From a virus, in IMG/VR virus record IMGVR_UViG_3300013093_000118, positions 1 through 37,508 of that record: a stretch of 37,508 bases of DNA; one strand, given 5' to 3'. Under the pieces are notes generated by a model. That model made no database searches and was not told the origin of the DNA. It saw only the letters and a program-made list of their open reading frames with translations. Numbering within the stretch: position 1 is the first letter of the stretch; each line of letters begins with the position of its first letter. Of the stretch, positions 10,425 to 34,800 are shown one piece after another. A program made the translations under genes and the position numbers.

Positions 10425-10449
10425 GTTTCGCTCGTTCCTTATTTTAGAG

Positions 10450-10457
10450 TATTTATG
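10450..10457 (-). promoter_or_regulatory. T4-like late promoter box (CATAAATA)
   Basis: The minus-strand CATAAATA lies in the 51-base gap, 25 bases before the ATG at 10424, with a good Shine-Dalgarno (AAGGAA) between them. It fits the NATAAATA late consensus. Confidence 0.65.
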
Positions 10458-10475
10458 CTATTTTGCATTAAAAAA

Positions 10476-12347: not shown

Positions 12348-14719
12348 TATATGTTACCAGTAAAAATAATATAGTTGATAGTTAGGTATGGATTTACGAT
12401 TGGAACAGCGTTTCCAGGCTTTGCATTGTTACTTGCACTAGAACTTGTTGCTGCTGAAAAATATTGAGTTGCTCCAGTTGCCGCATAGGTTGGCAATTCA
12501 GTTACATCAAGTACTGCATTTTGTTGGCCGCCAGATCCGCCCACTGCATCGGCTGTGGTTGAGGTAATGCGTCTTGCGCCAGCAGATCCATCTAGTACTC
12601 CACCAGTGTATACTAAATTTCCATTAACATCAGTTGCTTGAGTATAGCTATTAACAGACGATCCATTAACACCGTCAGTTAAATTATCCATATTGTCACG
12701 ACCAAGTGCAAAACGACCTCTTAGATCTGGGAGACAGAATGTGTTTTTGCCCTGTGGTGTTCCTAAATTATAAGTACTACCAATGACGTTATAGAGTAAT
12801 CTATAGGTATCCTGACTTATTTCACTACCATCACACAATAGATATCCTGCGGGAACTGTAGATCCAGTACCTGCAAATGGTAATATTGAACCCACGGGCA
12901 CTTGACTCACATGACTTAAAAATACACTCTTAGTCATTGACTTTAATACTGAGCTATTGACTGTGGTTTGTAATACCAACAGTTGATCGCTAGGTGAAGA
13001 ATCAGTTGCTGCTGGTTTATTTGTAATCAACGGAGTATCAGCGGTTACTGTTAGTACAGCTTGTCCGTTTGAACTTATACCATTAAATAATGTTCCTGCA
13101 ATACCGCTTACTGGATCTGGCACGCTGATAAAATCAGATTGTACATTACCTACAGTTCCGCCTAATTTAAATAAAGTACTATTAGTTAAGGCAGCAGCAG
13201 TACCGGTAACGCTACCAGATACTGTTCCAGCAAACGTTCCGTTAAACACTCCGTTAAATGTTGATGCATATATATTTCTAAATGGTCGTGTTTGTGATCC
13301 AATATCGTAGATTGGTACAGTTTGATCTGCTGCTGGTTGAATTACTGGACCACCACTAGCATTACCGCTGATTAGTATTTTTCCAGATGTTGTTATATCG
13401 GCAGACGAAGTTAATGCTAAAGAAGTAGTAATACCCGATGTTGTATTTGCTGACAACACTGTAGAATTATTAGTAGTACCGTCAGTAACTATTAGGCCAC
13501 CTGCTGTACCAGCTACTCCAGAAGTAATTACTCCAGCAACACTCAGTACAGTAGTTGGATTAGTGTTATTTGCTCCTATTCCAACATTACCAGTTGCATC
13601 AATGTGTAACATAGTTTTATTGTTTGTTATAAAATCAAAACTATTTCCGGTTACATTTCCTGTAAATCCAATACTTGTTCCGTTAATGCCGAGATTAAAA
13701 TCTAAATTGTTACCAACACTAAACCCGCTGGCATTTTTAATATTCAATGGATAATTTGTAGTGCTAGAGATATCTGATCTTAAAAAGTTAGATGAACTTA
13801 CTGATGTATTATTAATTAATAATGAATCAGCTGACTGCGCTGTTCCCCAGAATCTAGTAACTGATGCTGCTAAGTTGGTAAATGTTAAACTTGTTCCCGA
13901 AACAAAATTTGGAGTAAAGACCACTGATGGGCTAAATGTTACTGTATTTCCATTAACTGCTGTCACTGTTAGACTAGTAATATTGCTACTGTTAGGAGGA
14001 GCAGCGAATGTTGCACCTCGACTGACTCCGATCGCACTAGTCACAGTAAACGACGAACTAGTAGTGCCGATCGTAGCAGTCTGCATAGTTGCTTGTACTA
14101 CAGTAGCACCGGTTAGTGAGTTTGATGCATCAACTGTACTGAGATTTATACCTTCATTAATCGATGAGAATCCGCTAATACTTGATTTTGGATTAAAAGT
14201 TTCTTTACTAATAATAGCAATTCTGTATCCATTAGCATACATAGATATTACATTATGTGTAACATTATTAATATCGTCAATGGTTTCTACAATAGGACCT
14301 GTAGTATTTCCAGTAGTATATTGTGGTCCTACTAATACCCAAGAGCTGCCTCCAAACAAATATAATTGTTGTGTAGTAGTATTAACCCAAAGATCACCGA
14401 TGTTGCTACTTGCAACCGCAGGCGCAGTGTCACCTTTTTTAAGTGATCCAGCTTCGACCCAATTAGTTCCATCATACAACATGAGAATTTTATTGCTAGT
14501 GTCATACCATAATTCGCCCTGAACAGGTGTACTAGGTGCAGTTGGGCTAGCAAAATTTTCTAATAACTGTAAAAAATCTTTAGCAATTACCGGAGCATAT
14601 CCTGAATAGTTTCTACCAACAAATGCTAAATCAGTAGTAGTGTTGAGAGAACCGTCCTCAACTACAAGGGGAATCTTAGCAGGATTTGTAGAATCTGTAA
14701 ATTGAATTTGATAGGCCAT
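12347..14719 (-). CDS. tail fibre-type protein 3 with C-terminal phage tail-collar domain
   Basis: This 790-residue protein carries the shared module at residues about 1-185 (VVEDGSLN, FVGRNYSGYAP, FLQLLENFA, PVQGELWYDT, GDLWVNTTTQQLYLF). A beta insert rich in Thr/Val follows (about 210-290), then RFWGTAQSADSL and repetitive shaft sequence. Residues about 605-680 form a tail-collar domain: VPVGSILPFAG, PAGYLLCDGSEIS, YRLLYNVIGSTYN and LPDLRGRFALGRDN, as in the phage Collar family found in short tail fibres such as T4 gp12. The ATG is 3 bases after the preceding stop, with AGGAG about 8 bases upstream. This gene most likely encodes a short-tail-fibre or adhesin subunit of the baseplate (family knowledge plus position). 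Confidence 0.85.
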   Translation of the reverse strand: MAYQIQFTDSTNPAKIPLVVEDGSLNTTTDLAFVGRNYSGYAPVIAKDFLQLLENFASPTAPSTPVQGELWYDTSNKILMLYDGTNWVEAGSLKKGDTAPAVASSNIGDLWVNTTTQQLYLFGGSSWVLVGPQYTTGNTTGPIVETIDDINNVTHNVISMYANGYRIAIISKETFNPKSSISGFSSINEGINLSTVDASNSLTGATVVQATMQTATIGTTSSSFTVTSAIGVSRGATFAAPPNSSNITSLTVTAVNGNTVTFSPSVVFTPNFVSGTSLTFTNLAASVTRFWGTAQSADSLLINNTSVSSSNFLRSDISSTTNYPLNIKNASGFSVGNNLDFNLGINGTSIGFTGNVTGNSFDFITNNKTMLHIDATGNVGIGANNTNPTTVLSVAGVITSGVAGTAGGLIVTDGTTNNSTVLSANTTSGITTSLALTSSADITTSGKILISGNASGGPVIQPAADQTVPIYDIGSQTRPFRNIYASTFNGVFNGTFAGTVSGSVTGTAAALTNSTLFKLGGTVGNVQSDFISVPDPVSGIAGTLFNGISSNGQAVLTVTADTPLITNKPAATDSSPSDQLLVLQTTVNSSVLKSMTKSVFLSHVSQVPVGSILPFAGTGSTVPAGYLLCDGSEISQDTYRLLYNVIGSTYNLGTPQGKNTFCLPDLRGRFALGRDNMDNLTDGVNGSSVNSYTQATDVNGNLVYTGGVLDGSAGARRITSTTADAVGGSGGQQNAVLDVTELPTYAATGATQYFSAATSSSASNNAKPGNAVPIVNPYLTINYIIFTGNI

Positions 14720-17059: not shown

Positions 17060-20000
17060 TTAACGACTATAGTCAGTATACCATATACCAGGAACTGCTT
17101 TAATAAATTTAGCTATTGTGCTGTTGTCTTGCAGTATGTTGCTCGCAGTGTCGCCTGCACGTATATTTTGATTTAATAGATTTAAATCATATCCATCCCA
17201 CAATTCACCTGTTGTTTTAACTACAGTTATTTGTGTGCCAACTGCTAGTTTGTTTGTCAATGTAATAGATGAAGACGTTCCGTCGACTGTAAAATCTGCT
17301 GGGAAACTAACATCGCCGTTGGGGCTATAAGGTGCATTATTAATGTTGAATACACTGTACGCAGATTTCTTCAGACGGATGTTGCCAACAAAGAAATGCC
17401 AGTTTGCACTGTCAAGAGTGAATGTACTAGAGCTTACGTGAGCTGTTGTACACTTGTATGTATAGCTGTTAACTGTAACAATGTCACCAATACTGTAACT
17501 AGTATTTGCAGACCAGATAGCAGTATCGTTATATCCGCCGACAAACACTTCAATCTCATTTACGCTCTTAGGAACGAAATTGAGATTTACAGTGTTAGTT
17601 CCATCAGATTTAATTGTATATGTTGTAGCTGTATCCACATAAGGAATCGTTTCACTTGGTCCAATATTTTGCACTGATGTTCCGGAACGATTTAGTGAAT
17701 ATATACCTGTGCCTAATGTACCTCTGCGTAGTTGACTTAATACATTACCGTTGAGAGCAAAGTATTCAATACGTTCTCCGCGGATCTCAACTATTCCTGG
17801 TTTATTTTGAGAAGGATTTGGTAAGTCAAATTTACTTGCATCAACTACTACAATTTGTGTGTCATTCCATTTTAAATCTGCGGCTAGCATGGTTCTAGTA
17901 TTAGCATTTAATCTCTTATAACTAACTCGGTTAAGCATATCTTTAAACTGCATATATGATGCACCAGTTTGCGGCAATACATTGCTACCAAATGTAATTA
18001 AAGTAATTTTATCTGTTAAACTTGGTGCAACTGTCAGTTGAACCGATTGTAAATCTGCACTTAGTTGATAATCAACGGACGGTGTTAACAGCGTATTATT
18101 TTTAATTACCCAGACATAGTTACTGTTTAATACAGGACGATCTAATGGTAATGACCCGCTGGTCAATCTATTAAACGCATAAAATGCTGGAGTCCCTGGA
18201 GTAATTGAATATGAAGAATTAAATTCAATTTCTGTTCTTTGCATATCTAAAAAATCGTGAACATATGAGCTAATAACTTCTACAGTATGTGTATTGTCGT
18301 ATGCTTGAGTAAATGTTATTTGCTGAGTATTTGGATTATACGAGTATCCATCAGTTGCTTGTACACTGACAGTTAGTTGTTTTCCTAAATACTGTCCATA
18401 GATTGCTTGATTAATGCTCACAGTTATACCGCTTAGATCAACAGTATAATCTTTGCCTAGTGTTAATTTATTTCCATCTGCGTATACTAAAATGCTGTCA
18501 ATTGATACTGTAAATGGTGTAACTTTATAAGAATCGATTGTATAATTTAGCTCTTGATTCTGTATAGTATAATAACTGTTAACAGGTCCGTATAGTATAT
18601 TTTGATCTACACGAACTAACATAAATGACTCATCCGGTAACTGATTGCCTACAGGATTTTGTAAAGTATATGTCAAACTACCATTGGTTGCAATCTTTTC
18701 TGATTTAGTAATCGCAAATGACTGTTTAGATCCTGATACTATAATATAATTTATCAGTGAGCCGGCTGCTGGAGCTCCTGCAAATCGTAGACCGATAGTA
18801 TTCGAATATTCATATGTTGAATCTGTTTTAAATAGTGTTGGGTTTACAGGTTGCCCGTCAACATAGGCTAAAAATGTTACAGGTGTTATCCAAGGTGCTG
18901 TTGTAATAAATTCTCTAGTTGTTCCGTCACCTACAAAATAATTAGTATCTAAAATATTAGCACCACTAAACCCAATGCTAAAAATACTGATTGTTTGATT
19001 AGCTGTTGGAACTGAGCTAAACTTGATCAGTCTATTTTTATAATCAACTCTATAGTCTGTTGTGTTATCTGTAGTATAGTTCATAATTGTTGAACCAATT
19101 TTAACTATTACTGCTGTAGGACTATTAGGTTGTTGACTAATTGAATATTGGTAGGTAATTCCATCTGAAATATAATTATCAATCTTGATGCTTGCAGAAC
19201 CGGTACTAGGTTTATCATAAACTTTAACCGCTAGTGCATCTACGACTTGTCCCGGAACAACTTCTTCCGTCGCTGGGCTAGTAGTTGGTGTAACTAAACC
19301 ATCGCCATCAAGTACAATGTCATCTGCTGCTAAACCTGTTGCTGTACTGTATGCAAGATCACCACCTGTGATTGCGGTATCATAATCAACTAATTGACTA
19401 TTAATTGAACCATCACTGGTTTGCTGACGCAATATAAATGAATCGTTATTACTTACTACAAATGAATTAGGAATAGCTATTACGGTGCTAGTAGTACCAT
19501 CAGCATTATTGACCGTTGTAACAGTAGGTGTTCCAGTGGTGCCAATATTAATTGTTTGCATGATAGCACTTGAATTAGTCTGCTGTGGTGTACCGTAATT
19601 AGGATCATCTAATCGTTGAGGAGCCAATGTGCCGGTAATAGCAATAGTGCTGCCTGATGGTGTGTCTGCTAAAGCCGATTGAGTTAGCACAATGGTTCCG
19701 TTAGCATTAATTGTCACGTCGACTGGTTGTATCAATGTTCGAGTAAATGTGATGCTGGTTGCATTTGCAATATTTGTATATAATATTTGATTTAATGTTA
19801 CATTGTGATTAACAGGATCAATGCTAACAATCTCTGCATTATAGCCAAAACTATTCACGGCGGTCGACACAATATCACCGATACGCAATCCGGTTGTATC
19901 TGCTAGCGATAGTATAAAACTACCTGCAAGATTACTAAATGTCAGAACTGTACCGTCTGGAACTGTACCGATAGGAGGTGAGCTAATTGTTAATGTGGTT

Positions 20001-23000
20001 GATGATAGCACACGAATTACTTGCTGTCTATTGCTAAATCCTGTTCCAGATATAATCATCCCCGGTACAATGCCAACAGTACTTGCCACTGTCAATTGAG
20101 TATTGACACTACTTGCTGCGGTATAGGTACTGGTGATAGCCCGAGTTTGTTTAAATAATTCAACGGTGGCAACTGGAAAACTAATCTTAGGGTTGAACGA
20201 ATAACTCGAAGTAGTTCCATCGGCTGTATAAGACTTAATGTAATTTTGAACATAATATACGTTCAATAAAGTGCCCACTGTGGGATTATATGGCAGGGTA
20301 AACGTATGAGTATTCGCCGCTACCTGGATTGTATAATCGGTATAGTTAGGGTCGAAAGCGTCCCATTTATCTGTATAGAATGCGCTAGAGTCCCAACCGC
20401 CACTGACATTAAAATCTAAACCACTAACAACGGCGCCACCGTAATCAACTCCAGTCATTAATTGTGACAAATCTTTGCCTAACTGTCCGCTAGTTGGATT
20501 ATAATAAAACTGAATTCTATCTACTGATGTTAGGAATGTAGTATCAACTGAATAATTTATTACTATTACACTGTTTTTCTTTGGTGCGGTTGATAAAGTT
20601 AGTTTACCAGAATAAACAGTCTGTCCAGATACTTTACTAGATACTAAAGAAATAGTATAAAATTCTCTCAATAGTGGCGCACCGTTAATTGTAACACTAG
20701 ATTTACCTACACGGATATCCGGAGCCCATTGCAACGTAAATTGTAACTGTGAACTAGTAGTTGTAGTAAATGTTTGAGTTTTATTCAAACTATTCATATA
20801 ATAACTAGGTGTAAGTCTATCAAATTTTAAACTAATTAAACTTGATCGAACTACACTATTACCAATATAAGCTACCGCAGTGGCCGGTGTGCCGCCTACT
20901 GATAATCCACCGCTAAGAGTCACAGTTGGGGTTGTTAAATATCCTTTACCGTTAGTTATTAACACAATTCTATTAACAACTCCGTTGGCAATGTATGCTT
21001 TAGCTGTGGCGCCGGATCCAGAACTGCTGCTAATAATAACCTGTGGAATATTAATATATCCGCTGCCGCCTGATGTAAGATGAATTTCTGTCACTTCGAA
21101 TCCAACATTATCTAACCAGAATTTCCAAGGATATTCGGTCAGTGTAGAATCAGTGTAGTGAACAACACCATTTGATACCGTTGGGCATAGAGTGGTTAAT
21201 TTGTTGTTTTCATATGTCGACTGTAAATCAAAATCAGTCACAGCAGTACTTCCCATTTCAACGCCGGTTGTTCCCGGAACTCCTGAAAATTTACTAATAT
21301 ATTCTCTAACTTTTGTTCTGTATGGTTTAACTTCTGAAACATAGTCCTGGAAGTTACTTAAATTATCAACAGGATAATTCACTGGCTGGCTAAGCTGTCC
21401 AACATTATGTGTAGCTCTTACAAAACTAGTTTTAAATATCCAATCAAGATATAGTTGTTCACTATAGGCATATCTCACCGTTGAGAAAAATAAATCTAAG
21501 TAAGATATCTTGAGATCGTCAATAAAAATATTATTTTTTATAGCATTTAAAATAGTTCTTAATTCAGTTGCAGCTACCGTATCAAATGAAATTTCATCAA
21601 ACGTACTAGCATCATATCCAACACTGGTACCTTTGAAATTATAAAGTGCGCTTGATAACTGTATTGTACCTTCTTGTAAACCTACCACCGAATAAGAAGC
21701 TGTCCAATCAACTGAACTTGAGTTAGCAACTTTTTCTAATAATACCCACTTTCCTGAATTTGCTGTAAGTACTTTGACAGTCTCACCGATCTCTGCAGAA
21801 ATAGAATTTAGATCAGCAAACGTACTAATTGCAAAATCAGGCGAAGTGAATTGACTATAACCAGTTTGATACCAATCAATATAACTCCAGTATTTTCTAA
21901 CATCATATCGTTGAGTTAATATTCTAGACCACAGTTTATTAACTGGATCATAACTATAAATGCTCCAAGTATTATCTGCTTGGCTGTCGCTTTGAACTAA
22001 CACACAGTAATCTCTAACCAATGCTACTGTATTTTCGTCATACCCCTCACCACCGTTTATAACAGTTGCGCCGATTATATGACCTAACGAGTCAATAACT
22101 GCCTGTACTACTGCGCCATCGCCGCTACCTGCTATAGTAATATAAGGAGCATTAATATATCCCTTACCCGAATTCACAATGGTAATGCCGATGATCGTAC
22201 CATTAGTAATAATTGGTGTCAATACTGGTCGAGTAAACGATCCAATCGCTACTGCATCGATGCCAGCTTCTGTTAATATAGTTGTATCCCACAGTCCTGA
22301 TATCGTTGTTGGTATCGGATCATGACTTTCTAATGCTGTGAGATCTCTTGATTCAGTAATTTGCACTGAAGACATTACAGAATTAACTGTTTCAATAAAT
22401 TCCTTTAATGCCTCAACACGATTTACAAACATACTCTGACGTGGACGATTTTCAATGCCGTAACGTAGTTTAGGTGGAAGTGATGGATCTGGAACTACTC
22501 GACCCTTTTGATCAACTCCGCATAAGCTATCGAACCATTTTTGTTCAATAGTATGTGGTAAATCAACGATCGTATCATTACTAATTAACTTCCATTGACT
22601 ATGGACATTTTGATCAGTATTGTCGATCAACCAATATTCAATAGATAAAACTGTGTTAGTACTGTTGAGCAGTGGTTTAACATTAGTTAGACTAATTGAA
22701 TTATTTGCAGTAAATGATATGTAACTGTATCCTTGTCCTCTTGGATTAGAGATTAAATTAGCCACTGACGCTGCTGAAATATTTCTGCCAGATATATTTG
22801 GTACAGTCTGTTTATTCTTAACCCAGAAATAATAAGTGTTGATATAAGTTTTAGTAAGACTGTCATATCGAGCATAGACACTGTACACGCTATCACCGTA
22901 TAAACTTGTTCCACTAATACCTAATGCTAGTCCAGCTGGAGTGTCGGTTTTCTTAGTATAATCATAATAGCTGTCCCACACAGATGGCAGATACGGAGAG

Positions 23001-26000
23001 CTAACCCATTCATAAATGTCAATGCTTGCTCCCGGTGCTACTGTGTTCCATACATTATTCCTATAAGCAGGATCATTAAAATAAGTTTCTAAAAACTTAG
23101 CAGTTCTTAAATCCCACCACAGTTGACCAACTTGAGCCGAGGACCAGAAAGTTGTAGGGTCAACATTTACCGATGATGTTCCTACAGAATAAGTTGCCGG
23201 GTCGTAAAATGACTTATAGCGAAGTTCTTCTTCAGCAATGCCGGCAATTTTTCCCTGCAATGGATCAATAATATCAAGATAGGTAACTAGTTCACCAATT
23301 GATTTATCATATAAAAATACTTTTTTAATCTTATCTAAATTTGGAATATCTGTTTGTGTACGATCTATCGTCCATGTATATTTGTTAGGAGTTTTATAAA
23401 AATCAAAAATATTTCCAGATTGGAATCCTTGATCATATGCGTACGGTACTCCAGCAACTATATGATTGTTACCAACTGCAAATCCTTGGCCAAATCCTTG
23501 ATACGATGTTGGGTTTGATAAACTTTCTGCAAACACCCATTTAGAAGAATATTGATCGTAAACATCTATTCTACCAGAACTAATATTAATTGTTCTAAAA
23601 TTAGTTGATTGTTTATCAAAAGTAGTTGTACCCTCATCAATTGTTGTAGTAGTATAAGTATCGCCGTCTTGACTATAAACAACTAATGTTTTATAATCAT
23701 TCATAAATGCTATCTTATTACCAAATTTGGAACCTTGAGTTGGTTGATGATCTTGTAGTTCTTGATACAGACTGTAACCGGTTGCTGTGTTAACATAAAC
23801 TCTTACAAAACCTTGTTGAGTTGTAGTAGCAGTATCTGCAGACTGATCAGCAATCGCAATATATTCCCCCGAGTTAGATATTGCAATACTGTTACCATAG
23901 TTATTGTCAGCATTATTGTCTAACGTATTAGCCGTTGGCAATATTTGAGTTTGAGTTAGACTATTTGCAATTTGTTTGTAAACATAAACTTTGCCAGTTT
24001 GCGAACCGGCCGTTGCAGATATTAGTACGGTTAACCCATCATTACTTACTACAATTTGATTTCCAAAATTAGTACCATTAGGTCCGATAATACTGGTAGA
24101 TAAATCATAGCCCCAGCCGGTAGTATAAAAACTTAATAAACCATCTGGAACGCCATCCGGTGTTCCGGTCAATAGTAATGTTGTATTGTTTAATACTGTC
24201 TCAACTGTTTGTCCCTCGGTGAATCCTGTACCCTTAACATGCATACCCGGGAAAATTCCAAGAGTCGATGATAAAACCAAGGTGCCTTTTCCACTTCCGA
24301 TAGGATTGTAAATCGCGCTGATTACCGTTGTTGATGTGTAAGAAAATTTATAAACCTGATTTGTTCCAGGAGCACCAACATATAAAGCATCAACACCAAA
24401 CGCTAGGGCTGATCCAAATAATTCGCCGGCTGCCGGTGATGGGCTAGTAATAGTGTCAATTAGATTATAATTATTGTCTAAGTCTTTCTGATATATCGAA
24501 ATGACACCCTGTTGGCTTAATCCAGAACTAGCTGTTACTGTACGCAATAATGCGAGGCCTGTACCAGCACCTGGTCCTGTAGCAACAAAAATTGTATCAA
24601 CAGTATTAGATGCAGCTCCAACTTTTGTAAAGTCAGTGAGTGTTCCTAACGTTTGAATTACATATGATTGATTAGTATTAAACGATCCTGCGGTTACTGC
24701 TGGACCAAAAACGCTGCCTGATCCAGTTCCTGGACCCGATGCTGTAAACACTGTGCCAACCGCATTTGAAAATGCTCCCACTTTTGTAAAGTCAGAATTT
24801 CCTGTTGTTCTAATAGTATATTGAGTTCCAGTGATTAACGATCCAGCATACACAATGGGAGCTGCTGTGCCAGTGCCAGTTCCTTGACTATTTGCAATAA
24901 AAAATTGCCCAACAGTATTAGATGCTGCTCCAAACAGAGTAAAATCAGTAGGACCTAGATTTGCAATCTGATAAGTTTGGCCGGCTACAAGATTAGTTGC
25001 ACTTACTGTTGTTGTTGAAAATTTTGGTTGACTTACAGGTATATAGGGTATTTCTTCCCAATAGACAGAATTAACAGTAGAAGGTTCTGTACCTGTTGGC
25101 ACTGGAAGAACTGCTTTCCAGTATAAGTTATTGTGACTAACGATACTACCTTGTAAGTATGTTTGAGATACCCAACTACCCAAGTAATTACTAGAAACAT
25201 CACTTGCAGTGGGCGATCCTGTAACTAACCAAGAAGCATCCGGTGACAATGCTATTACAGTTGCCGATGCAGAAGGTTGCAATCTATTAGAAAAGAATGG
25301 AACATCTAATTTGCCAGTTTGCACCCAAGGAGAATTTACTCCTGCTCTGGCATGCATAATAACATTACCAGTGCTGGTTCTAATGGCCATTGCAGTGCCT
25401 TGTGAGTTTACAGCAATTAAAGACCCATACAGAGCATTATCAAATGGGGTTAAATTTGCTATTGCTGTTGATTTATAGCACGGTACGTATTTCCAAGTGG
25501 CCCACTTACCGTCACCTCGGTCGTCGGTCCAAATTAGTTCATTTGAATCGAGATGCAATGGCAATAACGAATCAATGTTATCAATAGAAGTAGTACGCTG
25601 ACTGGTTAAACTATAAACAACCAATGTAGAAACCAGCGTTACATAATCTGCGTTACTAGAATTAGCAGGCGACGGAAAATTTGATAATGTTGCTGAAATT
25701 GTAAATGAATTTACGCCAACTCCGGTAACTTGATAAAAACCGTTGACCGAAGGTACTTGTGATAAACCAACATAATCACCGATTTTAAGTTTTGGAATTG
25801 TTTCTGTTGTTAATGTCAGTACGTTAGAATCATAAGATGCAGCACTTATTCGAATGCCAAGGTCAGTGAATCTGTAAATGTTCCAATCATTAGGCTTATT
25901 ATCAAATGTACACCAAATATAAGCTCCATTGTTGAAGGTGGTTATATCTTGAGTCACGATGTCTGATATATTTTTGAGGGTAATAAACACATCATTAGGA

Positions 26001-29000
26001 TTAACATAACCTGCACTACGCAATAGAGGTTGATAATTTTCAGTTATCGGAAATGGTGCTGAATCGTATCCATTGGGTTTTAAATAAACATCATTAGGTG
26101 TTTGTTGAATTACAAAATTACTAATATCTGAATTAACTGTATTAGTTAGTACCAGTGCTTGCGGATTATTTTTAAATGTCCCTTCATCCAAAACTAATTC
26201 AATGTTTTCAAAAGAGTGACTTGCACCGTATTGTCCAACACGCAATGCCCACTCTTCATAAAATGTCAAACTCTCTAAATTATCAGAACTTAATACATTA
26301 AACAATTTATTAAGGACGTTTTGTGTACCCTTCTCTCGGATCATTCCCTGATAGAATTTAAATTCACTAACGTCATCTTGAATAATGTTTTCAAGGTACT
26401 GACGCTTTTGATAGCCAATTAAATGCTGGCCCATTGCTTGTTGAGCACTGTCAAAACTATCAACTTCAAGGCTATAAAAATCTGTAAACTGTGTGGCAAT
26501 ATTTGTCCAGTTAGGCAATATCTGCGCCATTGGTTTTGAATTCAGTTGTACCCAATCTGTTGATATAAATGTTGCTGTACCTGCAATAAATTTGTCAGCA
26601 CTATAATAGTAACCTTGGAAACTGATTACCTCGCCCATGTTATAATCTTGCCATGCTTGCCAGCTTTGTATTTCTGCCCGGTCATAGATAAAGCCTGGAA
26701 TATCCAATCCACCGTACCATCCGTTGGTTACATATGCAGATGCCTTAACTCTTTCTCTTCTATAACCGCTTGGGGGATTATAAATGATATCATTAAAAAT
26801 TGTAGAATTATCAATGATTGCCACGTGTTCATTTTGTATCAAATAAAAACTAGCACAGAAAATTCCATCAGTAGTCCTTGGACTATATGTAGCAGTGTTA
26901 CCTTCTCGATAGCTGTCTAATTCACGAGGAGGTATCGGTGTGCCGTCAGCTTTAAATATTTCATAGTTATTAAAAGAATTACTAATATCATCAATGACCG
27001 TTAGGTCAGTAGTAAATGATAATCCTGTTGCGCCAGGACTTAGACTGATTACTGAATTACCAACATTGCTCAATCCATCTAATTTATTATATTTTGTTGA
27101 ATCAAATACATCTGATGCTGGCAAATTGTATAATGCACTATAATATACTCCATCATACCGCACTATGGTTCCATAGTTAATTGGAGTATTGGGTGTCCAG
27201 TCGGACCACTTATCCTGAGAGACTGACCAATTCTGTGTAGTCCAGAACATAAACTCCTTGGCACTAGTTTCCCAATTTAGCACAACTCCTAAATTAGTAT
27301 TAAAATCATCAAACAAGAATCCTTGATCTTTTAAGTACTCACCGTATCCAGTTAAAAAATCTACCACATCTTGTATGGTTGTAAACAATGTTCCGTAAGG
27401 TACAGCTGTCGGAGTAGTTCTATCCCAGCTTTTTCTAAAATATGCCGAAGCGCCGCCGACTACAGGTAACGCTGTTAATAATGCAAGGTCAGTAGCGACA
27501 AATGTGCTGCCGGCTGTGAACGTTTTAGTTGCTCTATAAAAAGCTCCACTATACTGAACAATGGTGTCAATTGCATATTGTTGACCTGGAGTCCAGATCG
27601 AATAATTTTCTGAAATGCCACCGACATTGACCAGATTAGCAGTTTGTGTGTATTGGTATGAATAGAAGTACGGCTGAGTTATACTGTATCCTTTAACCTC
27701 AAATCCTGTTGAAACCTTAGTGATAATAACACCACTATAGGTTAATTTCTTAACAGGGCTCGAGCTATTTAAAATTATATTATAGTTTTCAGAAGGAATA
27801 AACACGCTGCCTGTAGACAAAGGTGTTTTGCTTTCTAATAATAAATTAAATTGATCTTTGTTAGTAAATGCTCCAACACGATAACTTAGACTTGGTAGTA
27901 TTAATTTTAAATCACTAGCATATCGATTGTAGTCAGTAAGATTATTACTAAAAATATAATTTAAAATAAGGTCAACTACATAATTTACAATACCAGCAGT
28001 TTGCACACGAGTTTTACTAGAATAAATGCTAGGAATTAAAACATCCGCAGGTGTAATACGCAATCCAGTATCTTTAAATACTAGTTGTCCGGCTAAGTTT
28101 CTAACAATTCTTGATCTATCTAATAATAGACCAAATGTTTTTGCAGGAGTAGCCAACATAGCCGCAATAACAATACTAAACGGGTAATGACTGCTGCGTC
28201 TCCAAGCTGTTTCAACTGGGCTTTCATCTCCGAAGATAAAATTATTGTCAGTGCTTTGTGTAATTGGTCCTTTTGCCAGTCCTGAAAATGTTGGGCTAAC
28301 TAAATTTCCATTTTCGTCAACTGGAAGATGTGACATTAAAAATGGTTTAGCATACTTGGACAAAGTATATGCCGGAACTGTACCATCACCTCGAACCACA
28401 CCGTTGGCAATATCTTGCCACATTATTAAATTGTTACTGGTATAAGGTGCTGGTCCGTAGGTCGATACCCACCATGTAGGCTGTATTGTAAATCCTAACA
28501 TTTCCCATGGGCAAATATTAGGACGATCAGTATCTAACATCCAGCGATAGATTCCTCTCCAATAACCCGGAGTTGGACGACCGTCCGGTGTTACACTTCC
28601 GGTATAATTATAGGTAAAAGAATTAGCTCTATCATAATTGAGAGGCTTTGAAAAATCTACACCTAACTTGCCGACCCAGCGATAAAAGTTAGGAGCAAGT
28701 ATCTGATTAAACTCAGAAAGGCTGTATGCTGTTTTTCTATTATAACCTGGAATAGTATCAGTAATATCAAAAATAGAAGTATCATAGTTAACTTTGATAT
28801 TATTGAAAATTCTTTTTTCTAGTTCTAATATTAGATTGTCTCTATAATCACCATAGGCTAGAATCAAACTTCCATCGTGCCCTTGTATCATAGTACGAGG
28901 AGTCACTAAGGTTGTATCAGTATAAATTTTAGGTACAAATTTTGGATAAAATCCTAATTTAGTCGGAGTAGCTGGTACAAAACTGCCGTCAGTGCTGTCA

Positions 29001-31861
29001 TATTCAACCGTAGTGATTGTATCACCGTCATGCATAACTACTGAATTGTCAATTACAACTAGTCCCTGATCATCAAATGTATAATCCTGGCCATAAATTA
29101 ATTGAACACCGTTAAGATAAATTCCAACAGCTTTATTAGATAGATTAGATAATGTAAACACTGATGATAGTGGATACATTTTTATTCTATGATCAACTAC
29201 TGTAAGATCTGTTTTAATACTAGCACCGTATGGAACCATATCACTGAAATAATATGGTGCGGTATTTGGTGTGTTAGCGTTTAGTTTTAACATGATACGA
29301 TCAACCAGTGCAACTGGATCGCCATCAATGCCTAAATTATTTGCTGCTGTGATAAAGTTTCTTTTAAAATTATTATAGTCATCTCGACTTGTTTCGAGCG
29401 CCTTAATAATGTTATTAGATTGAGATGTAATATGATATATGCTTAAACTAGCAGGACCGCTATGTTGTATAAATTTAGTTCCGTACTGTGAAATACTTCC
29501 AAGATCTCTTAAATTGTTGTCTCCTGGAAAATTTCCAACAAATACAGTTGACAAGTTATCAACAATACTGTTAACATGGTCAATAACTTCGCCCAATGTA
29601 AAATCCTGCATTTCGGCATTTAATGGATTATTTTGTAAATTTAATGGTATTTCATAATAGCCGTTACTATTAATCGGTTGAGCTGAAAAAGCCTTGATGG
29701 TCAATACATCACTAAGACTGATTGCTGTTTTTAGTACTACCTGTTTATACATTGGAGTGTTAACAATACTCCAGTTGTCGCCAGAAAGTCGAATTCCATT
29801 GACATACACACGAACTACAAGATCATCTAGTGCGGCGATATCGTCAAAAATATCTATATTAAAATTATTAGTTAAATTAGAATTTTTATATATTCGAATA
29901 GCGGCTTGTGTATTAGTTACTGTCGAAGTCTTCCAGCCATTGACATACACTGAATTGCCAGAATAGTCATGACTAACCAGATATCCAACATTGATATTTT
30001 TGCTAATCAGCGAGGTCGTCTCTTTATATTGGAAACTGTCAGTCGCCAGTGTAAAGTTAAAAACAATATCTCCAATGTTATTAACATTTTGATAACTTAA
30101 CGGAAATCCTAAAGTTAAATCAGCAGTGCCTGTACCAATTTTATAAGAAAATATTGATGTACCGATAAATGAGCTACCATTGTAAACTGTGGTATCCCCG
30201 AAGCTAATACCGTTATCATCAACTACATCAAACAACGGAGCTTGATTTGTATTATTTTTTTGTTGCGAAGATTGCCATGCAGTGCCGTTGAACCAATACA
30301 TTCTACTTTGGTTCTTAATACCCTGCTTTACTAACACTGTCTGATTTTTTATAGGTGAATCTGTTTCAGTAAGGACGATTTGATCGTATCCTTTGATGTT
30401 AATGAAACTAACTGTATAAATTTTATTTTGTACTAGCGAATCTTTATCTGATAAAAATAATACACGATGACCTGATACTAGCGGTACTCCATCAATATTA
30501 TAACCTCGGGATCCTTCTATAGTAGAAAAAATATCTGTAGTAAATGTATCAACTAAATCGACATCATCGATTGCAGTTGTACCAAAATTAAATAATTTTA
30601 AATCAGCCTGAAATTCAATAATTGGTCGAATCGCTCTAGCTGTTTGATCTAAAGACAGATCACTTCCATTATAACTAGCACTAGTCGCAATAACATCTTT
30701 ATGGAACCAACGATTGTATCGACTCCATGGATTATGATCTTTACTTGCACGATTTATTACAAGATAATCTGTTATGCTGGCAAATCCAGTAGCATCACTG
30801 AAAGGATCGACATCAAATGCGGCTGAATCAAATGCTATCGATTCAGCAACTGTGTAAGGATTAATTATTTCTAAAACTTTAGAGTCAATTAAGGTGATTG
30901 CGGTTCCTACGCCTTCAACGTAGTATTGTCCAGTAGCATATGTTGAAGGTATTACTGTTCCTCCAAACGAAATTTTCATTCCGTTACTAAGTGCAGTACC
31001 GTCTGCTAGAACATAATTTTTTTTACCTAAAATGTCTTTTTCAACATCAATAGTTGATGCATCGGTTACATTAAATATTTCTAATGAACCACCTAAGTCA
31101 ATATCAGTTTCACTTTGATAATACAAAATACTCGGTGCATCTAATGGGACTGTAAATGTTATAGTGCCTTGTTCTACAGCAAAATTGCTGACTCCATGTT
31201 TATATCTAGTGCTTGCTCCTACCACTCGCTGAGACATAAAACTAAAAGGATTTCCTGGACTGTTGATTTCAAACGTATATGTTTGACCTCTATATAATTT
31301 CAATACAGGATTAAGATCTAATCCGTTTGGTGTAAACAGATATTCATTGGTGTTACCTTCTGATTGTATCTTTACAGTATATGTGCTAGTAATAGATACC
31401 GCCTGTCCGTAGATTGTAATAGTATCGGGACCATATGGCAACCAATAATAATTTTGAAAGTTAACAAACTTATCCCAATCAATATGCGGATCCCATGAAT
31501 AAAACTCTTGTTGATTTAATCGTGCATGATTATTTGTAATTCCACCAAAGACCCCAATTTGATTGATATAATCGATATAGTCTTTAAAAAATGTAACATT
31601 ACCTATACTGTCTTTAATAACTAGTCCGGGTTCTAATTGATAGTTTTGTCTTGTTGTATCTGCTGCGGTAACATAAACATCAGCACCTGTTGCCGCTTTT
31701 GCATTTTCACGACCAATAAATCCGCTGACCTTTGAAACTGTGCCAGGCTGATACAGCTGATCAATCGTTGCCTGCAAGAATTTTTTATTAGCAGGTGTTT
31801 GATAAAAATCAGGAAGAAAATTTACGCCTAGCCCTGGCTTGCCGGTCGGATTGTTTGCCAT
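17060..31861 (-). CDS. giant modular baseplate/tail structural protein (4933 aa, gp7 position)
   Basis: This single uninterrupted frame takes up 40 percent of the window. It begins MANNPTGKPGLGVNFLPDFY, followed by NKKFLQATIDQL and GFIGRENAKA, a start I associate with giant structural proteins of T4-like cyanophages. It follows gp6 directly (TAATG overlap), the place of T4 gp7 (1032 aa), so it may carry a wedge function in its conserved parts (FYEEWALRVGQYGA, YVSEVKPYRTKVREY, IVEIRGERIEYF). Modules I can see are a cupredoxin-like segment (about 170-260), CBM5/12-like W-Y-W repeats, an FG-GAP-like propeller (about 2140-2830) with three tandem repeats inside, GxGY..P beta repeats, and many Ig/fibre-like strands. 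There is no signal peptide or membrane helix. Surface binding is inferred. It is about five times longer than T4 gp7. Confidence 0.9.
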   Translation of the reverse strand: MANNPTGKPGLGVNFLPDFYQTPANKKFLQATIDQLYQPGTVSKVSGFIGRENAKAATGADVYVTAADTTRQNYQLEPGLVIKDSIGNVTFFKDYIDYINQIGVFGGITNNHARLNQQEFYSWDPHIDWDKFVNFQNYYWLPYGPDTITIYGQAVSITSTYTVKIQSEGNTNEYLFTPNGLDLNPVLKLYRGQTYTFEINSPGNPFSFMSQRVVGASTRYKHGVSNFAVEQGTITFTVPLDAPSILYYQSETDIDLGGSLEIFNVTDASTIDVEKDILGKKNYVLADGTALSNGMKISFGGTVIPSTYATGQYYVEGVGTAITLIDSKVLEIINPYTVAESIAFDSAAFDVDPFSDATGFASITDYLVINRASKDHNPWSRYNRWFHKDVIATSASYNGSDLSLDQTARAIRPIIEFQADLKLFNFGTTAIDDVDLVDTFTTDIFSTIEGSRGYNIDGVPLVSGHRVLFLSDKDSLVQNKIYTVSFINIKGYDQIVLTETDSPIKNQTVLVKQGIKNQSRMYWFNGTAWQSSQQKNNTNQAPLFDVVDDNGISFGDTTVYNGSSFIGTSIFSYKIGTGTADLTLGFPLSYQNVNNIGDIVFNFTLATDSFQYKETTSLISKNINVGYLVSHDYSGNSVYVNGWKTSTVTNTQAAIRIYKNSNLTNNFNIDIFDDIAALDDLVVRVYVNGIRLSGDNWSIVNTPMYKQVVLKTAISLSDVLTIKAFSAQPINSNGYYEIPLNLQNNPLNAEMQDFTLGEVIDHVNSIVDNLSTVFVGNFPGDNNLRDLGSISQYGTKFIQHSGPASLSIYHITSQSNNIIKALETSRDDYNNFKRNFITAANNLGIDGDPVALVDRIMLKLNANTPNTAPYYFSDMVPYGASIKTDLTVVDHRIKMYPLSSVFTLSNLSNKAVGIYLNGVQLIYGQDYTFDDQGLVVIDNSVVMHDGDTITTVEYDSTDGSFVPATPTKLGFYPKFVPKIYTDTTLVTPRTMIQGHDGSLILAYGDYRDNLILELEKRIFNNIKVNYDTSIFDITDTIPGYNRKTAYSLSEFNQILAPNFYRWVGKLGVDFSKPLNYDRANSFTYNYTGSVTPDGRPTPGYWRGIYRWMLDTDRPNICPWEMLGFTIQPTWWVSTYGPAPYTSNNLIMWQDIANGVVRGDGTVPAYTLSKYAKPFLMSHLPVDENGNLVSPTFSGLAKGPITQSTDNNFIFGDESPVETAWRRSSHYPFSIVIAAMLATPAKTFGLLLDRSRIVRNLAGQLVFKDTGLRITPADVLIPSIYSSKTRVQTAGIVNYVVDLILNYIFSNNLTDYNRYASDLKLILPSLSYRVGAFTNKDQFNLLLESKTPLSTGSVFIPSENYNIILNSSSPVKKLTYSGVIITKVSTGFEVKGYSITQPYFYSYQYTQTANLVNVGGISENYSIWTPGQQYAIDTIVQYSGAFYRATKTFTAGSTFVATDLALLTALPVVGGASAYFRKSWDRTTPTAVPYGTLFTTIQDVVDFLTGYGEYLKDQGFLFDDFNTNLGVVLNWETSAKEFMFWTTQNWSVSQDKWSDWTPNTPINYGTIVRYDGVYYSALYNLPASDVFDSTKYNKLDGLSNVGNSVISLSPGATGLSFTTDLTVIDDISNSFNNYEIFKADGTPIPPRELDSYREGNTATYSPRTTDGIFCASFYLIQNEHVAIIDNSTIFNDIIYNPPSGYRRERVKASAYVTNGWYGGLDIPGFIYDRAEIQSWQAWQDYNMGEVISFQGYYYSADKFIAGTATFISTDWVQLNSKPMAQILPNWTNIATQFTDFYSLEVDSFDSAQQAMGQHLIGYQKRQYLENIIQDDVSEFKFYQGMIREKGTQNVLNKLFNVLSSDNLESLTFYEEWALRVGQYGASHSFENIELVLDEGTFKNNPQALVLTNTVNSDISNFVIQQTPNDVYLKPNGYDSAPFPITENYQPLLRSAGYVNPNDVFITLKNISDIVTQDITTFNNGAYIWCTFDNKPNDWNIYRFTDLGIRISAASYDSNVLTLTTETIPKLKIGDYVGLSQVPSVNGFYQVTGVGVNSFTISATLSNFPSPANSSNADYVTLVSTLVVYSLTSQRTTSIDNIDSLLPLHLDSNELIWTDDRGDGKWATWKYVPCYKSTAIANLTPFDNALYGSLIAVNSQGTAMAIRTSTGNVIMHARAGVNSPWVQTGKLDVPFFSNRLQPSASATVIALSPDASWLVTGSPTASDVSSNYLGSWVSQTYLQGSIVSHNNLYWKAVLPVPTGTEPSTVNSVYWEEIPYIPVSQPKFSTTTVSATNLVAGQTYQIANLGPTDFTLFGAASNTVGQFFIANSQGTGTGTAAPIVYAGSLITGTQYTIRTTGNSDFTKVGAFSNAVGTVFTASGPGTGSGSVFGPAVTAGSFNTNQSYVIQTLGTLTDFTKVGAASNTVDTIFVATGPGAGTGLALLRTVTASSGLSQQGVISIYQKDLDNNYNLIDTITSPSPAAGELFGSALAFGVDALYVGAPGTNQVYKFSYTSTTVISAIYNPIGSGKGTLVLSSTLGIFPGMHVKGTGFTEGQTVETVLNNTTLLLTGTPDGVPDGLLSFYTTGWGYDLSTSIIGPNGTNFGNQIVVSNDGLTVLISATAGSQTGKVYVYKQIANSLTQTQILPTANTLDNNADNNYGNSIAISNSGEYIAIADQSADTATTTQQGFVRVYVNTATGYSLYQELQDHQPTQGSKFGNKIAFMNDYKTLVVYSQDGDTYTTTTIDEGTTTFDKQSTNFRTINISSGRIDVYDQYSSKWVFAESLSNPTSYQGFGQGFAVGNNHIVAGVPYAYDQGFQSGNIFDFYKTPNKYTWTIDRTQTDIPNLDKIKKVFLYDKSIGELVTYLDIIDPLQGKIAGIAEEELRYKSFYDPATYSVGTSSVNVDPTTFWSSAQVGQLWWDLRTAKFLETYFNDPAYRNNVWNTVAPGASIDIYEWVSSPYLPSVWDSYYDYTKKTDTPAGLALGISGTSLYGDSVYSVYARYDSLTKTYINTYYFWVKNKQTVPNISGRNISAASVANLISNPRGQGYSYISFTANNSISLTNVKPLLNSTNTVLSIEYWLIDNTDQNVHSQWKLISNDTIVDLPHTIEQKWFDSLCGVDQKGRVVPDPSLPPKLRYGIENRPRQSMFVNRVEALKEFIETVNSVMSSVQITESRDLTALESHDPIPTTISGLWDTTILTEAGIDAVAIGSFTRPVLTPIITNGTIIGITIVNSGKGYINAPYITIAGSGDGAVVQAVIDSLGHIIGATVINGGEGYDENTVALVRDYCVLVQSDSQADNTWSIYSYDPVNKLWSRILTQRYDVRKYWSYIDWYQTGYSQFTSPDFAISTFADLNSISAEIGETVKVLTANSGKWVLLEKVANSSSVDWTASYSVVGLQEGTIQLSSALYNFKGTSVGYDASTFDEISFDTVAATELRTILNAIKNNIFIDDLKISYLDLFFSTVRYAYSEQLYLDWIFKTSFVRATHNVGQLSQPVNYPVDNLSNFQDYVSEVKPYRTKVREYISKFSGVPGTTGVEMGSTAVTDFDLQSTYENNKLTTLCPTVSNGVVHYTDSTLTEYPWKFWLDNVGFEVTEIHLTSGGSGYINIPQVIISSSSGSGATAKAYIANGVVNRIVLITNGKGYLTTPTVTLSGGLSVGGTPATAVAYIGNSVVRSSLISLKFDRLTPSYYMNSLNKTQTFTTTTSSQLQFTLQWAPDIRVGKSSVTINGAPLLREFYTISLVSSKVSGQTVYSGKLTLSTAPKKNSVIVINYSVDTTFLTSVDRIQFYYNPTSGQLGKDLSQLMTGVDYGGAVVSGLDFNVSGGWDSSAFYTDKWDAFDPNYTDYTIQVAANTHTFTLPYNPTVGTLLNVYYVQNYIKSYTADGTTSSYSFNPKISFPVATVELFKQTRAITSTYTAASSVNTQLTVASTVGIVPGMIISGTGFSNRQQVIRVLSSTTLTISSPPIGTVPDGTVLTFSNLAGSFILSLADTTGLRIGDIVSTAVNSFGYNAEIVSIDPVNHNVTLNQILYTNIANATSITFTRTLIQPVDVTINANGTIVLTQSALADTPSGSTIAITGTLAPQRLDDPNYGTPQQTNSSAIMQTINIGTTGTPTVTTVNNADGTTSTVIAIPNSFVVSNNDSFILRQQTSDGSINSQLVDYDTAITGGDLAYSTATGLAADDIVLDGDGLVTPTTSPATEEVVPGQVVDALAVKVYDKPSTGSASIKIDNYISDGITYQYSISQQPNSPTAVIVKIGSTIMNYTTDNTTDYRVDYKNRLIKFSSVPTANQTISIFSIGFSGANILDTNYFVGDGTTREFITTAPWITPVTFLAYVDGQPVNPTLFKTDSTYEYSNTIGLRFAGAPAAGSLINYIIVSGSKQSFAITKSEKIATNGSLTYTLQNPVGNQLPDESFMLVRVDQNILYGPVNSYYTIQNQELNYTIDSYKVTPFTVSIDSILVYADGNKLTLGKDYTVDLSGITVSINQAIYGQYLGKQLTVSVQATDGYSYNPNTQQITFTQAYDNTHTVEVISSYVHDFLDMQRTEIEFNSSYSITPGTPAFYAFNRLTSGSLPLDRPVLNSNYVWVIKNNTLLTPSVDYQLSADLQSVQLTVAPSLTDKITLITFGSNVLPQTGASYMQFKDMLNRVSYKRLNANTRTMLAADLKWNDTQIVVVDASKFDLPNPSQNKPGIVEIRGERIEYFALNGNVLSQLRRGTLGTGIYSLNRSGTSVQNIGPSETIPYVDTATTYTIKSDGTNTVNLNFVPKSVNEIEVFVGGYNDTAIWSANTSYSIGDIVTVNSYTYKCTTAHVSSSTFTLDSANWHFFVGNIRLKKSAYSVFNINNAPYSPNGDVSFPADFTVDGTSSSITLTNKLAVGTQITVVKTTGELWDGYDLNLLNQNIRAGDTASNILQDNSTIAKFIKAVPGIWYTDYSR
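17390..17540 (-). other. CBM5/12-like W-Y-W module in the giant protein (copy 5)
   Basis: This encodes IWSANTSYSIGDIVTVNSYT, then a YKC segment and a closing NWHFF. The pattern W-x(4)-Y-x(2)-GD-x-V with a later Y and terminal W matches small chitin/cellulose-binding type modules. Carbohydrate binding is inferred only. Confidence 0.5.
24550..25005 (-). repeat. three tandem repeats of about 46 residues inside the giant protein
   Basis: The three units read GQTYQIANLGPTDFTLFGAA, GTQYTIRTTGNSDFTKVGAF and NQSYVIQTLGTLTDFTKVGA. Each is followed by SN.V...F.A...G.GTG. They are similar in protein and partly in DNA (for example the ACTTTTGTAAAGTCA string occurs twice), which suggests recent duplication. 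Confidence 0.7.
25043..25182 (-). other. CBM5/12-like W-Y-W module in the giant protein (copy 4)
   Basis: This encodes LGSWVSQTYLQGSIVSHNNL, then YWKAV and a closing YWEEI, the same pattern of aromatic residues as the copies at 26.5-27.6 kb. It sits next to the propeller region. Sugar binding is inferred. Confidence 0.5.
26530..27605 (-). other. cluster of three CBM5/12-like modules in the giant protein (copies 1-3)
   Basis: In protein order: IWTPGQQYAIDTIVQYSGAF with YRATK (about 27460-27605), WTPNTPINYGTIVRYDGVYY (about 27072-27215), and WQAWQDYNMGEVISFQGYYY with the end WVQL (about 26530-26668). Each has the spacing W...Y..G.IV.Y.G.YY.A typical of small carbohydrate-binding modules. Only a profile search or structure model can confirm it. 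Confidence 0.5.
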
Positions 31862-34800
31862 TAGTTAGATGCTCCAAAATTTGCGCTGGTTATGTTTTGA
31901 CTAGATACTACTGTTGTTAGTGCTTCACCGGTAACTGTTTTAAGATTAGCACTAGTAAGTCCTGATACTATTACAATATTTTTAGCTGTGGCACAACTTA
32001 AAAATATTTGATTACTAGAACATTGTACTTCAAATAAACTACCAAAGTATTGTCCAGATTGAGTAGGCACAATAACAAAGTTTGTAATATCTGGTGCTAG
32101 TTGATTCATGACATATGTTGACAATTCTGTAAAATAAAATGTGTCACCAAAGTCCCAATTCTGTAAAGCAAAAAATTGATTAATTGCTGTTAATATTCTT
32201 GCGGTAACGTCGGCAGTTGATACAGCAATAGTTGGATTGATGATGACATTAAAGGTTGCTTGTAAAGTAGGATCAGCCTGTTCTCCAAACAAAAGTTTAT
32301 AACTTACAGGATGATAAACAATTTCATCGCTAATAGCTTTAATTAAATTCAAATTAGAACTTAGCATACTGTTAAGTTCTGCTGAACTTGGAGGTAAAGG
32401 CTCGCTGATATTTGCGCCAGACAACCATTGTCTAAATTGAGAATCATAGCTGTCAGTTAATACATAGATATCAATAATATTGCTTGGTCCTGGATCAATC
32501 CTTGAATCATAATCTGCACTATGAGTGTATTGAAATTTAATTTTATCTCTACCAGTATATACTCTGTAATCTAAAGTAGGAGAAAATATACCAGTTGTGC
32601 GATTTAATTTTTTTACAACACTAGTATCAATGAAATAAAAATATTGGCCATCTGGATATAAAGTAGAGGTAATACCTGTTTGTGTTGATTTGATGATTAC
32701 AGGACCAGTATCTGGATCATTTAAAACATATCGATAATCTTCTTGACCTTCTGTTATAATATATTTTTCTTCTATAATATATTTGTATTTGTCTTGATCA
32801 AAGTTTCCAGTATTTGGATTAACCATGTCAAGGAATAGTTGAGGATTATCTACTATACCATTACCGCTAGAATCAGCAAACGTTACAACAATCTTTTTAG
32901 GATCTATATATCCGTCTTGTCCTACGTATTCACTAACAACTTGCCAATCAGAGTCAACTGTAAATGCAGATGTACTGTCTGGTTGTGTGTTAATACTTAA
33001 TAATTTAATTTGATCTTTAACTATATTGCTAGATGCAATATCATAAATTTTCTGATTACTGTCAAAATAGAAAGTTACAGCCGCATCGCTTTCAAATACA
33101 TAGCGTATTTGTCTAGTGGTGATAGTGTAGTATTCATTATTAGTAGTAAACAACAACATCCAACTACTGTCTATTTGAGTACTCGAAGTGTCTCCTTGGT
33201 TAACTAAACTAAAAGCACCTGCAACATTAAGATCTTGTTCATAGATAATTTGCCATGCTTGATTTACTGCATCATAGCGTAGACCAAATGGTTGATTAGC
33301 AAATATTAAGTCTATCATTGTTGATTGAACACTTGGTGTAATTGTTAAAACAAACTTAGGAAGGATTTGTGTTATTACGGCATTAGTAGGTATTTGCTGA
33401 TTTAATTGAATAGGTCCAAATCCTGTGGCCAATCTACCAGTACCACTAGCAGTGCCGTCTCCTGACACTGACACGACTTCAGCCCAAACATACGTTGTTC
33501 CGCCTGCTGGAATATTTCCAGTATATGCTACTAGTTCGTTGTTCTTTTTAGTATTAAAATAATAGCCAGCTGGTGCAACAAATTTTAGTAACGCACCTGC
33601 ACCAACATATTTTAAATTTGTTGCAGTAAGATTTTGTCCAACAGTATAAGGAGTAGCATTTGCGATTGATCCAATATATCCACTGGACATGTTGCTATCA
33701 GAAGTTATACTATACCACGCAGCACTATTACCAACTGTTAGTACGTCAATGAAATTAGCATAATAAAAATTTCTTAAATTTTGATCTCGTAGAATATCAG
33801 TTACAGTGTTAGCAATAATTCCTGCAATTTCAGTCTGTGTAGTATAGGTGAATGTGGTAGAATATGTAAATGGTTGTTGATAAAGTACGCCGTCATCGGC
33901 AAACAAATTAGTGCTACTGTACTTGCCTGTTGGATCAGTCAGATCAAAATAACGGCTAATACCGCTGCTAGTTCTGTTTACTGCCTTAACCTTGGCCACC
34001 TGAAGATTAGCACTCAGCGGACTAATATTATAATCTTCACCTGTAATCATTCTATTTTGTGTATAGTATGTCTGAGGTGCGTTAGTTTTAATACTAGCAT
34101 TTGTTTCTGACGCGGTTGCATTAGTCACTGATGTTGCCAGACTTAATGTAATAGATAATGTTTCACTTGTGTTCTGTGCTGAAATGTAAGGTATAGTAAT
34201 TCCAACGTTTACAATATCTGATGGATTAATTGTGTATGATAGATTATTACTTACTCTGTAATATACTCTAAAAGAGCCTAGTGGCAAATTACCAAATACT
34301 CCGTCACTAAACGCCAATGCGATTGCATCGTTTGCTTTGGTTAATACGCTATAGATATTTTTAACCTGATTGCTACTTAAACTGTTATAAATTACATTGT
34401 TACCAGTAACAGAAGGAATTTTTGTCCAGGTGGTTGATTCTGCACCTTTCTGATCAATGCCGTATAACCATACGTCGGTATTGTTAATATTTTGAGTAGC
34501 AATGTCAATCGTTTGATTACTGCTAGGTTGCGTCACTGTAAATGTTGCAGTGTTCAACGATCCTTGAGTGAAATTAAAAAAGAATCCAGTTCCTGGACTA
34601 CCAGCACCGTGACCATCATCACTATAAATGCAGGCGATCTGATTACCTGCTTTAGGTGCTTCTTCATAAACAAAAGTTTCACCCTTGAATGTTGCACTGG
34701 TAATTTCAAAATTCATTGCACGACCTGCAACTGTTTGAGAAAATGTGTAGATAGGCACATCTGTATTAGATGAGTTAAATCTATACTGTGCTGTAGGAAT

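Follow-up and report, generated by a model that had tools for sequence, protein, structure and literature searches.

A 4,933-residue virion structural protein in the gp7 position of a large tailed phage: most likely a baseplate wedge subunit enlarged by inserted modules

Organization of the locus

The window, meaning the whole stretch of DNA analysed, is a 37.5-kb viral record in which a single 14.8-kb gene lies between a set of baseplate genes and a protease gene. The genes discussed here are as follows.

35815-37494, minus strand: gp5-like baseplate hub and tail lysozyme relative (phrog_13211)
35390-35818, minus strand: gp25-like baseplate wedge subunit (phrog_261/43)
31861-35343, minus strand: gp6-like baseplate wedge subunit, 1,160 aa (phrog_10646/219; hhalign to T4 gp6; Pfam Gp6-like_1st)
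17060-31861, minus strand: giant open reading frame (ORF), a virion structural protein of the phrog_10938 family in the gp7 position, 4,933 aa
15381-17057, minus strand: kumamolisin-like S53 peptidase with a pro-domain, the next gene after the giant (PDB 1t1e, E 3e-81)

The giant gene is real; its product is one very large structural protein, encoded by a large tailed bacterial virus. An earlier note on this DNA had described a stop-free frame of 4933 codons that follows gp6 with a TAATG overlap, and this is borne out. The frame is intact from an ATG start with zero internal stops, its start and the stop of gp6 share CTAATGGCAA, and GGAG precedes the start. The codon-position GC bias is even across all 4,933 codons, and at the base composition of the window an open frame of this length would arise by chance with a probability of about 1e-146.

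Because gp6-like, gp25-like and gp5-like genes precede it, the giant stands where gene 7 lies in T4. The gp6-like assignment comes from an hhalign match to T4 gp6 (probability 71, E 4e-5) and from Pfam Gp6-like_1st (E 0.002). This protein is likewise enlarged, having 1,160 residues against 660 in T4 gp6, and its resemblance to T4 gp6 is limited to approximately residues 28-441. The order gp5-gp25-gp6-giant is also found in PA5oct, gp25-gp6-giant in Atu_ph07, Phosso and GAP32, and gp6-giant in RaK2; in SCTP-2, a homologue of 3,807 aa is preceded by a large unannotated gene. The order in the window parallels gp6-gp7 of T4, gp25-gp6-gp7 of Aeh1 and W-J-I of P2.

Distribution of the family and presence in virions

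The giant matches the PHROGs family phrog_10938 in five stretches (E=0, 1116 bits), and the family bears only the label 'virion structural protein'. A tblastn search with the core of the giant found relatives in approximately 60 of 50,697 phage records, while 312 contig stretches of IMG/VR match the lake-phage core and a broader profile matched at least 587. The same gene is present in 86 fetched loci, corresponding to 78 distinct proteins besides that of the window. Intact frames from lake phages are mostly about 4,700-5,200 aa, the longest being 5,182 aa. The homologues of cultured phages comprise 3,857 aa in PA5oct, 4,449 in Atu_ph07, 4,555 in Phosso, 3,341 in GAP32 and 3,326 in RaK2, and in each of these five the homologue adjoins a gp6-like gene as its direct downstream neighbor. 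Huge-phage proteins of up to 7,694 aa, some of them tentatively structural, have been described by Al-Shayeb et al. (PMC7162821).

The earlier note took absence from virions as something that would speak against a baseplate role. Relatives are reported to be present there, this evidence coming from the relatives and not from the window phage itself. The record of PA5oct gp355 bears an ESI-MS/MS note, by which this relative is reported from the virion. For CBB_236, regarded as the giant because it lies beside the gp6 gene CBB_237, 21 virion peptides were found (PMC5259590). For gp245 of phAPEC6, a protein of predicted 382 kDa beside the wedge gene gp244, there were 17 (PMC7247149).

Conserved blocks and inserted modules

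Along the giant, conservation is high up to residue 1900, falls over residues 1900-2830 and is lower and patchy beyond residue 3900. The parts that could be told apart are listed from the N-terminus onward, all on the minus strand.

31034-31381, minus strand: residues 161-276, a domain also present in cyanophage gp9-like and tail-fibre proteins (tblastn, 31-43% identity over about 90-130 aa)
28991-29227, minus strand: residues 879-957, a beta-sandwich like phage tail-adaptor and tailspike attachment domains (AlphaFold model, 7rfv match)
26147-28894, minus strand: residues 990-1905, the most conserved core, common to all cultured jumbo relatives
27473-27601, minus strand: residues 1421-1463, CBM5/12-like module 1, kept in PA5oct, Atu_ph07 and Phosso
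27074-27205, minus strand: residues 1553-1596, CBM5/12-like module 2, within a clean insertion (1549-1602) missing from more distant relatives
26537-26668, minus strand: residues 1732-1775, CBM5/12-like module 3, not found in cultured jumbo relatives
26147-26533, minus strand: residues 1777-1905, a helical block with a gpI/gp7-type KGT motif, candidate element of the wedge core bundle
26324-26332, minus strand: residues 1844-1846, the KGT motif, with K and G invariant in 59 sequences
23402-25474, minus strand: residues ~2130-2820, a variable region of FG-GAP/propeller-like repeats and small repeat modules (FG-GAP_2, E 0.0013, below cut-off)
25058-25168, minus strand: residues 2232-2268, CBM5/12-like module 4, sporadic in relatives
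21122-23386, minus strand: residues 2826-3580, a second conserved block with a confident model and no clear PDB match in the search
22007-22270, minus strand: residues 3198-3285, a GxGY-repeat beta module (36% identity over 89 aa to the giant of cyanophage Bellamy)
17981-20803, minus strand: residues 3687-4627, an array of related beta-sandwich-like modules (self-seeded profile)
17384-17518, minus strand: residues 4782-4826, CBM5/12-like module 5

The core holds many residues that are invariant across distant jumbo phages. Within it, modules 1-3 are fixed in the lake relatives, PA5oct, Atu_ph07 and Phosso have a module at the first of the three sites only, and many relatives cleanly lack residues 1549-1602. 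The second conserved block follows the first at a short distance in RaK2 and GAP32, and the propeller-like stretch that separates the two in the giant therefore looks like an added region. The site of the GxGY module, a module that is shared with cyanophages, is empty in several jumbo relatives. Matches of cyanophage proteins to the N-terminal part of the giant were considered as signs of a shared giant and rejected, as they come down to the single shared domain at residues 161-276.

Pfam CBM_5_12 matches the giant above its cut-off (54.6 bits against 26.2), and in a scan of ten overlapping 600-aa pieces it was the only model to exceed its cut-off. FG-GAP_2 and the adhesin domain Sgo0707_N2, the latter at residues 4456-4495, fell below theirs, and other matches were at the level of chance. 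Searching PDB sequences with the giant gave only weak matches to CBM-type chitinases and deacetylases. The profile used to count the beta-sandwich-like modules took its seeds from the window, which makes their E-values circular. The CBM5/12-like modules may bind sugars, putatively of the chitin type.

Two suggestions of the earlier note bear on this layout. Swelling of the protein by domain insertion is well supported by the CBM5/12-like modules, which sit at fixed sites and are in some cases missing from cultured relatives. The picture of conserved wedge blocks spaced by adhesin-like modules holds as to the modules lying at fixed sites within a conserved scaffold, but the adhesin and FG-GAP matches themselves are below cut-off. 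On the whole, the giant can fairly be described as a conserved scaffold into which adhesin-like modules have been inserted.

Predicted structures and the second conserved block

AlphaFold modeled residues 800-1990 with a pLDDT of 84 and a pTM of 0.74, the helical block being low in pLDDT, and residues 2826-3580 with a pLDDT of 83 and a pTM of 0.52, good over most of their length. The beta-sandwich at residues 879-957 best matches 7rfv, TSP4 of CBA120 (Z 8.7, rmsd 1.9 Å over 64 residues). At residues ~1420-1465 and 1551-1598 the fold matches in the PDB are CBM5/12-type modules, for example 8fqc_P1 from the Milano baseplate receptor-binding complex (Z 7.7, 1.2 Å over 45 residues). Among the matches listed by fold searches with both models (Foldseek, VIA) there was no gp7 chain, and taken alone the helical block is modeled with low confidence. 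Such a block would fit an element that folds only together with gp6, and it would be compatible with other readings as well. HMM and structure searches, of the kind that the earlier note had proposed, yielded CBM and attachment-type modules, but no gp7 model and, among the matches listed for the two structural models, no gp7 fold.

For the second conserved block, the PDB search gave nothing convincing (best Z 5.8 over 59 residues), and BFVD returned only relatives and proteins with the GxGY module. This block raises the question of whether the giant is a fusion that replaces several T4 wedge proteins, namely gp7 together with gp8 and/or parts of gp10 and gp53, with residues 2826-3580 as a second ancestral subunit. 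Such an origin would account for two separately conserved blocks split by a variable insert, and no gp8-like gene was recognised among the ORFs just downstream. Against it, the model of the block finds no clear counterpart in the PDB search, gp8 included, and in relatives the gp9/gp10-like N-termini belong to separate genes downstream of the giant. A fusion appears quite improbable.

Relationship to gp7 and gpI

The earlier note was correct in giving T4 gp7 a length of 1,032 residues; its proposal that the giant is gp7 is supported in part, by gene position, operon order and a short motif. Direct similarity of the giant to T4 gp7 or T4 gp6 was rejected: with eight T4-type gp7 sequences, phmmer and hhalign searches of 600-aa pieces gave nothing above reversed or shuffled controls in any piece. 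The same method does link the gp6-like protein of the window to T4 gp6. The Pfam gp7 models (Gp7_helical, Gp7_5th and Gp7_6th) do not match the giant, and neither does Tail_P2_I, a narrow P2-type model that also misses T4 gp7. Core residues 990-1770 are without an identified counterpart in T4 gp7.

The motif lies in the most conserved helical block, where KG, mostly KGT, is invariant at residues 1844-1845. Against a profile of P2 gpI this block scores 25.6, the top value among 100 pieces of the giant and gp6, and none of 300 column shuffles scored as high or even reached 19. For comparison, the accepted pair of gpI and T4 gp7 scores 18.7 in the same test. When the profile combined gpI, T4 gp7 and Bellamy, the block was the best of 109 pieces (probability 46, E 2e-4), and 0 of 300 shuffles did as well. 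A second gpI-like piece, at residues 2943-2974 with a score of 21.4, was dropped when it fell to 17.0 with this broader, combined profile. Because the match of the KGT block spans only about 20 columns, it is support for a relationship to gpI and gp7 and not proof. The alignment to T4 gp7 and cyanophage giants suggested by the earlier note accordingly has two outcomes, T4 gp7 alone remaining within the null while Bellamy shares the KGT segment and the GxGY modules.

Alternatively, the giant could be a fibre-type or peripheral baseplate protein that occupies the gp7 place without being gp7; that role would then fall to another, unrecognised gene, and the KGT resemblance would be a matter of chance. 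Most recognisable domains of the giant are indeed attachment, adhesin or CBM modules, and T4 gp7 itself has no profile or fold match to it. This reading is nevertheless unlikely given the core with its many invariant residues in distant jumbo phages and given that the KGT block is, of the whole giant, the piece closest to gpI. In addition, among seven genomes, six of them complete jumbo genomes and one a 356-kb relative, Pfam models detected no other gpI/gp7-like gene, and Gp7_helical matched none of the seven, a point of little weight as the gpI model also misses T4 gp7. The most likely reading is that the giant is the core subunit of the baseplate wedge, swollen by modules of sugar-binding and adhesin type.

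The adjacent protease and downstream genes

The gene that follows the giant encodes a genuine S53 peptidase, its catalytic motifs being intact (E239/D243, D325 and S442). From this neighborhood, the earlier note considered the giant a likely target of the protease. In its strongest form, the giant would be a polyprotein that the protease cuts into several tail proteins, and an active-looking kumamolisin-like enzyme in the next gene is what such a scheme would call for. In about a dozen relatives, however, p202 lies within ~100 bp after the giant with no protease between, and there the giant is equally long. In others a gp9/gp10-like fibre gene separates the giant from the protease, and no S53 match exists in the 50,697 annotated phage records, though the giant family is present in approximately 60 of them. 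For these reasons maturation of the giant by this enzyme is unlikely, and the polyprotein scheme very unlikely indeed; a putative role of the protease at the host surface is more plausible. IMG/VR contains six relatives of the protease, and in five cases the gene lies downstream of this same giant.

What lies between the giant and p202 varies. A fibre-like gene with a gp9/gp10-type N-terminus is present there in many relatives, in some of them followed by the S53 protease, and other relatives have nothing; examples from the fetched loci are L205:2641-3960, L209:2221-4005, L053:20286-21287 and L052:21324-22421. Further downstream in the window, at 8931-14719 on the minus strand, three neighboring fibre-type genes have a common N-terminal region (phrog_15511), one with a Collar domain and one with a Peptidase_G2 self-cleavage domain that scores below threshold. 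Just downstream of the giant in GAP32 and RaK2, on the opposite strand, lies a gene for a ClpA-like ATP-dependent protease (L003:22008-24302 and L004:21949-24258).

A model for the enlarged wedge subunit

The gene, its conservation and position, and its modules with their gain and loss are observed. Taken together, the giant is probably a wedge subunit of the gp7/gpI class in a jumbo myovirus, enlarged by modules. In a heterotrimeric wedge, one giant per wedge would pair with two copies of the gp6-like protein by means of the helical KGT block (residues 1777-1905). Additions ahead of the core, within it and behind it appear to have brought the protein to its 4,933 residues; they comprise the five CBM5/12-like modules, domains of the beta-sandwich attachment type, the propeller-like variable region and the GxGY repeats. 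In the virion, six giant polypeptides would then form much of the lower tail surface, where they may be exposed so as to contact host glycans and to hold fibres encoded by the downstream genes. A more tentative and somewhat doubtful extension is that the innermost wedge subunit doubles as a receptor-binding surface: with carbohydrate-binding modules set right into a gp7-class core, contact with host glycans could feed into the contraction trigger, no separate fibres being needed.

Among the structural proteins without an assignment in jumbo phages like RaK2, PA5oct and Atu_ph07, this is one of the largest, and it now has a probable identity. The assignment also suggests that the same wedge position holds proteins from 176 to more than 5,000 residues, and it leads to the testable claim that jumbo phages widen their host-contact surface by putting sugar-binding-type modules into a core wedge protein.

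Comparison with known systems

The giant family of jumbo phages is already present in PHROGs and in virion proteomes, and its probable baseplate identity had previously not been spelled out. The present analysis adds two things, the evidence from the gpI/gp7 motif for the jumbo phages and a description of how modules were inserted. The jumbo members of phrog_10938 (PA5oct gp355, Atu_ph07 gp180, RaK2 gp465, GAP32_230, CBB_236 and phAPEC6 gp245) are homologous to the giant over most of its length, with approximately 25-30% identity in the core, and have the same place after gp6 and the same KGT block. Those compared here differ in size, 3,326-4,555 aa against 4,933 in the window and up to 5,182 in its clade, whose core contains two additional CBM-like modules and which also has the propeller-like insert.

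A giant in the gp7 place has already been annotated in cyanophages, since gp111 of the T4-like Synechococcus phage Bellamy, a 'baseplate wedge initiator' of 4,067 aa (L211:3071-15274), directly follows gp25-gp6. Like the giant it has a KGT segment and GxGY modules. The segment lies near its N-terminus (residue ~204), where T4 gp7 is recognisable (44% identity to residues 725-758 of T4 gp7), whereas the rest of the protein, apart from the modules, is not alignable with the giant. T4 gp7 shares with the giant the place after gp6, an overlapping start and a KG motif in a helical region, but is far shorter and has no significant pairwise or profile similarity to it.

The gp7 orthologues P2 gpI (176 aa) and XM1 gp17 (242 aa) follow the order W/gp25-J/gp6-I/gp7 and resemble the giant in the KGT segment, as tested for P2 gpI. 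They are 20-30 times shorter, and Pfam Tail_P2_I misses the giant. In XM1, flexible parts of gp17 bear the tail spikes (PMC10457771). Finally, the Milano baseplate complex (8fqc) and the fibres of 7-7-1 (9rkv) contain the same small CBM5/12-like fold as the modules of the giant; there it is part of receptor-binding or fibre proteins, whereas here it lies inside a giant in the wedge position.
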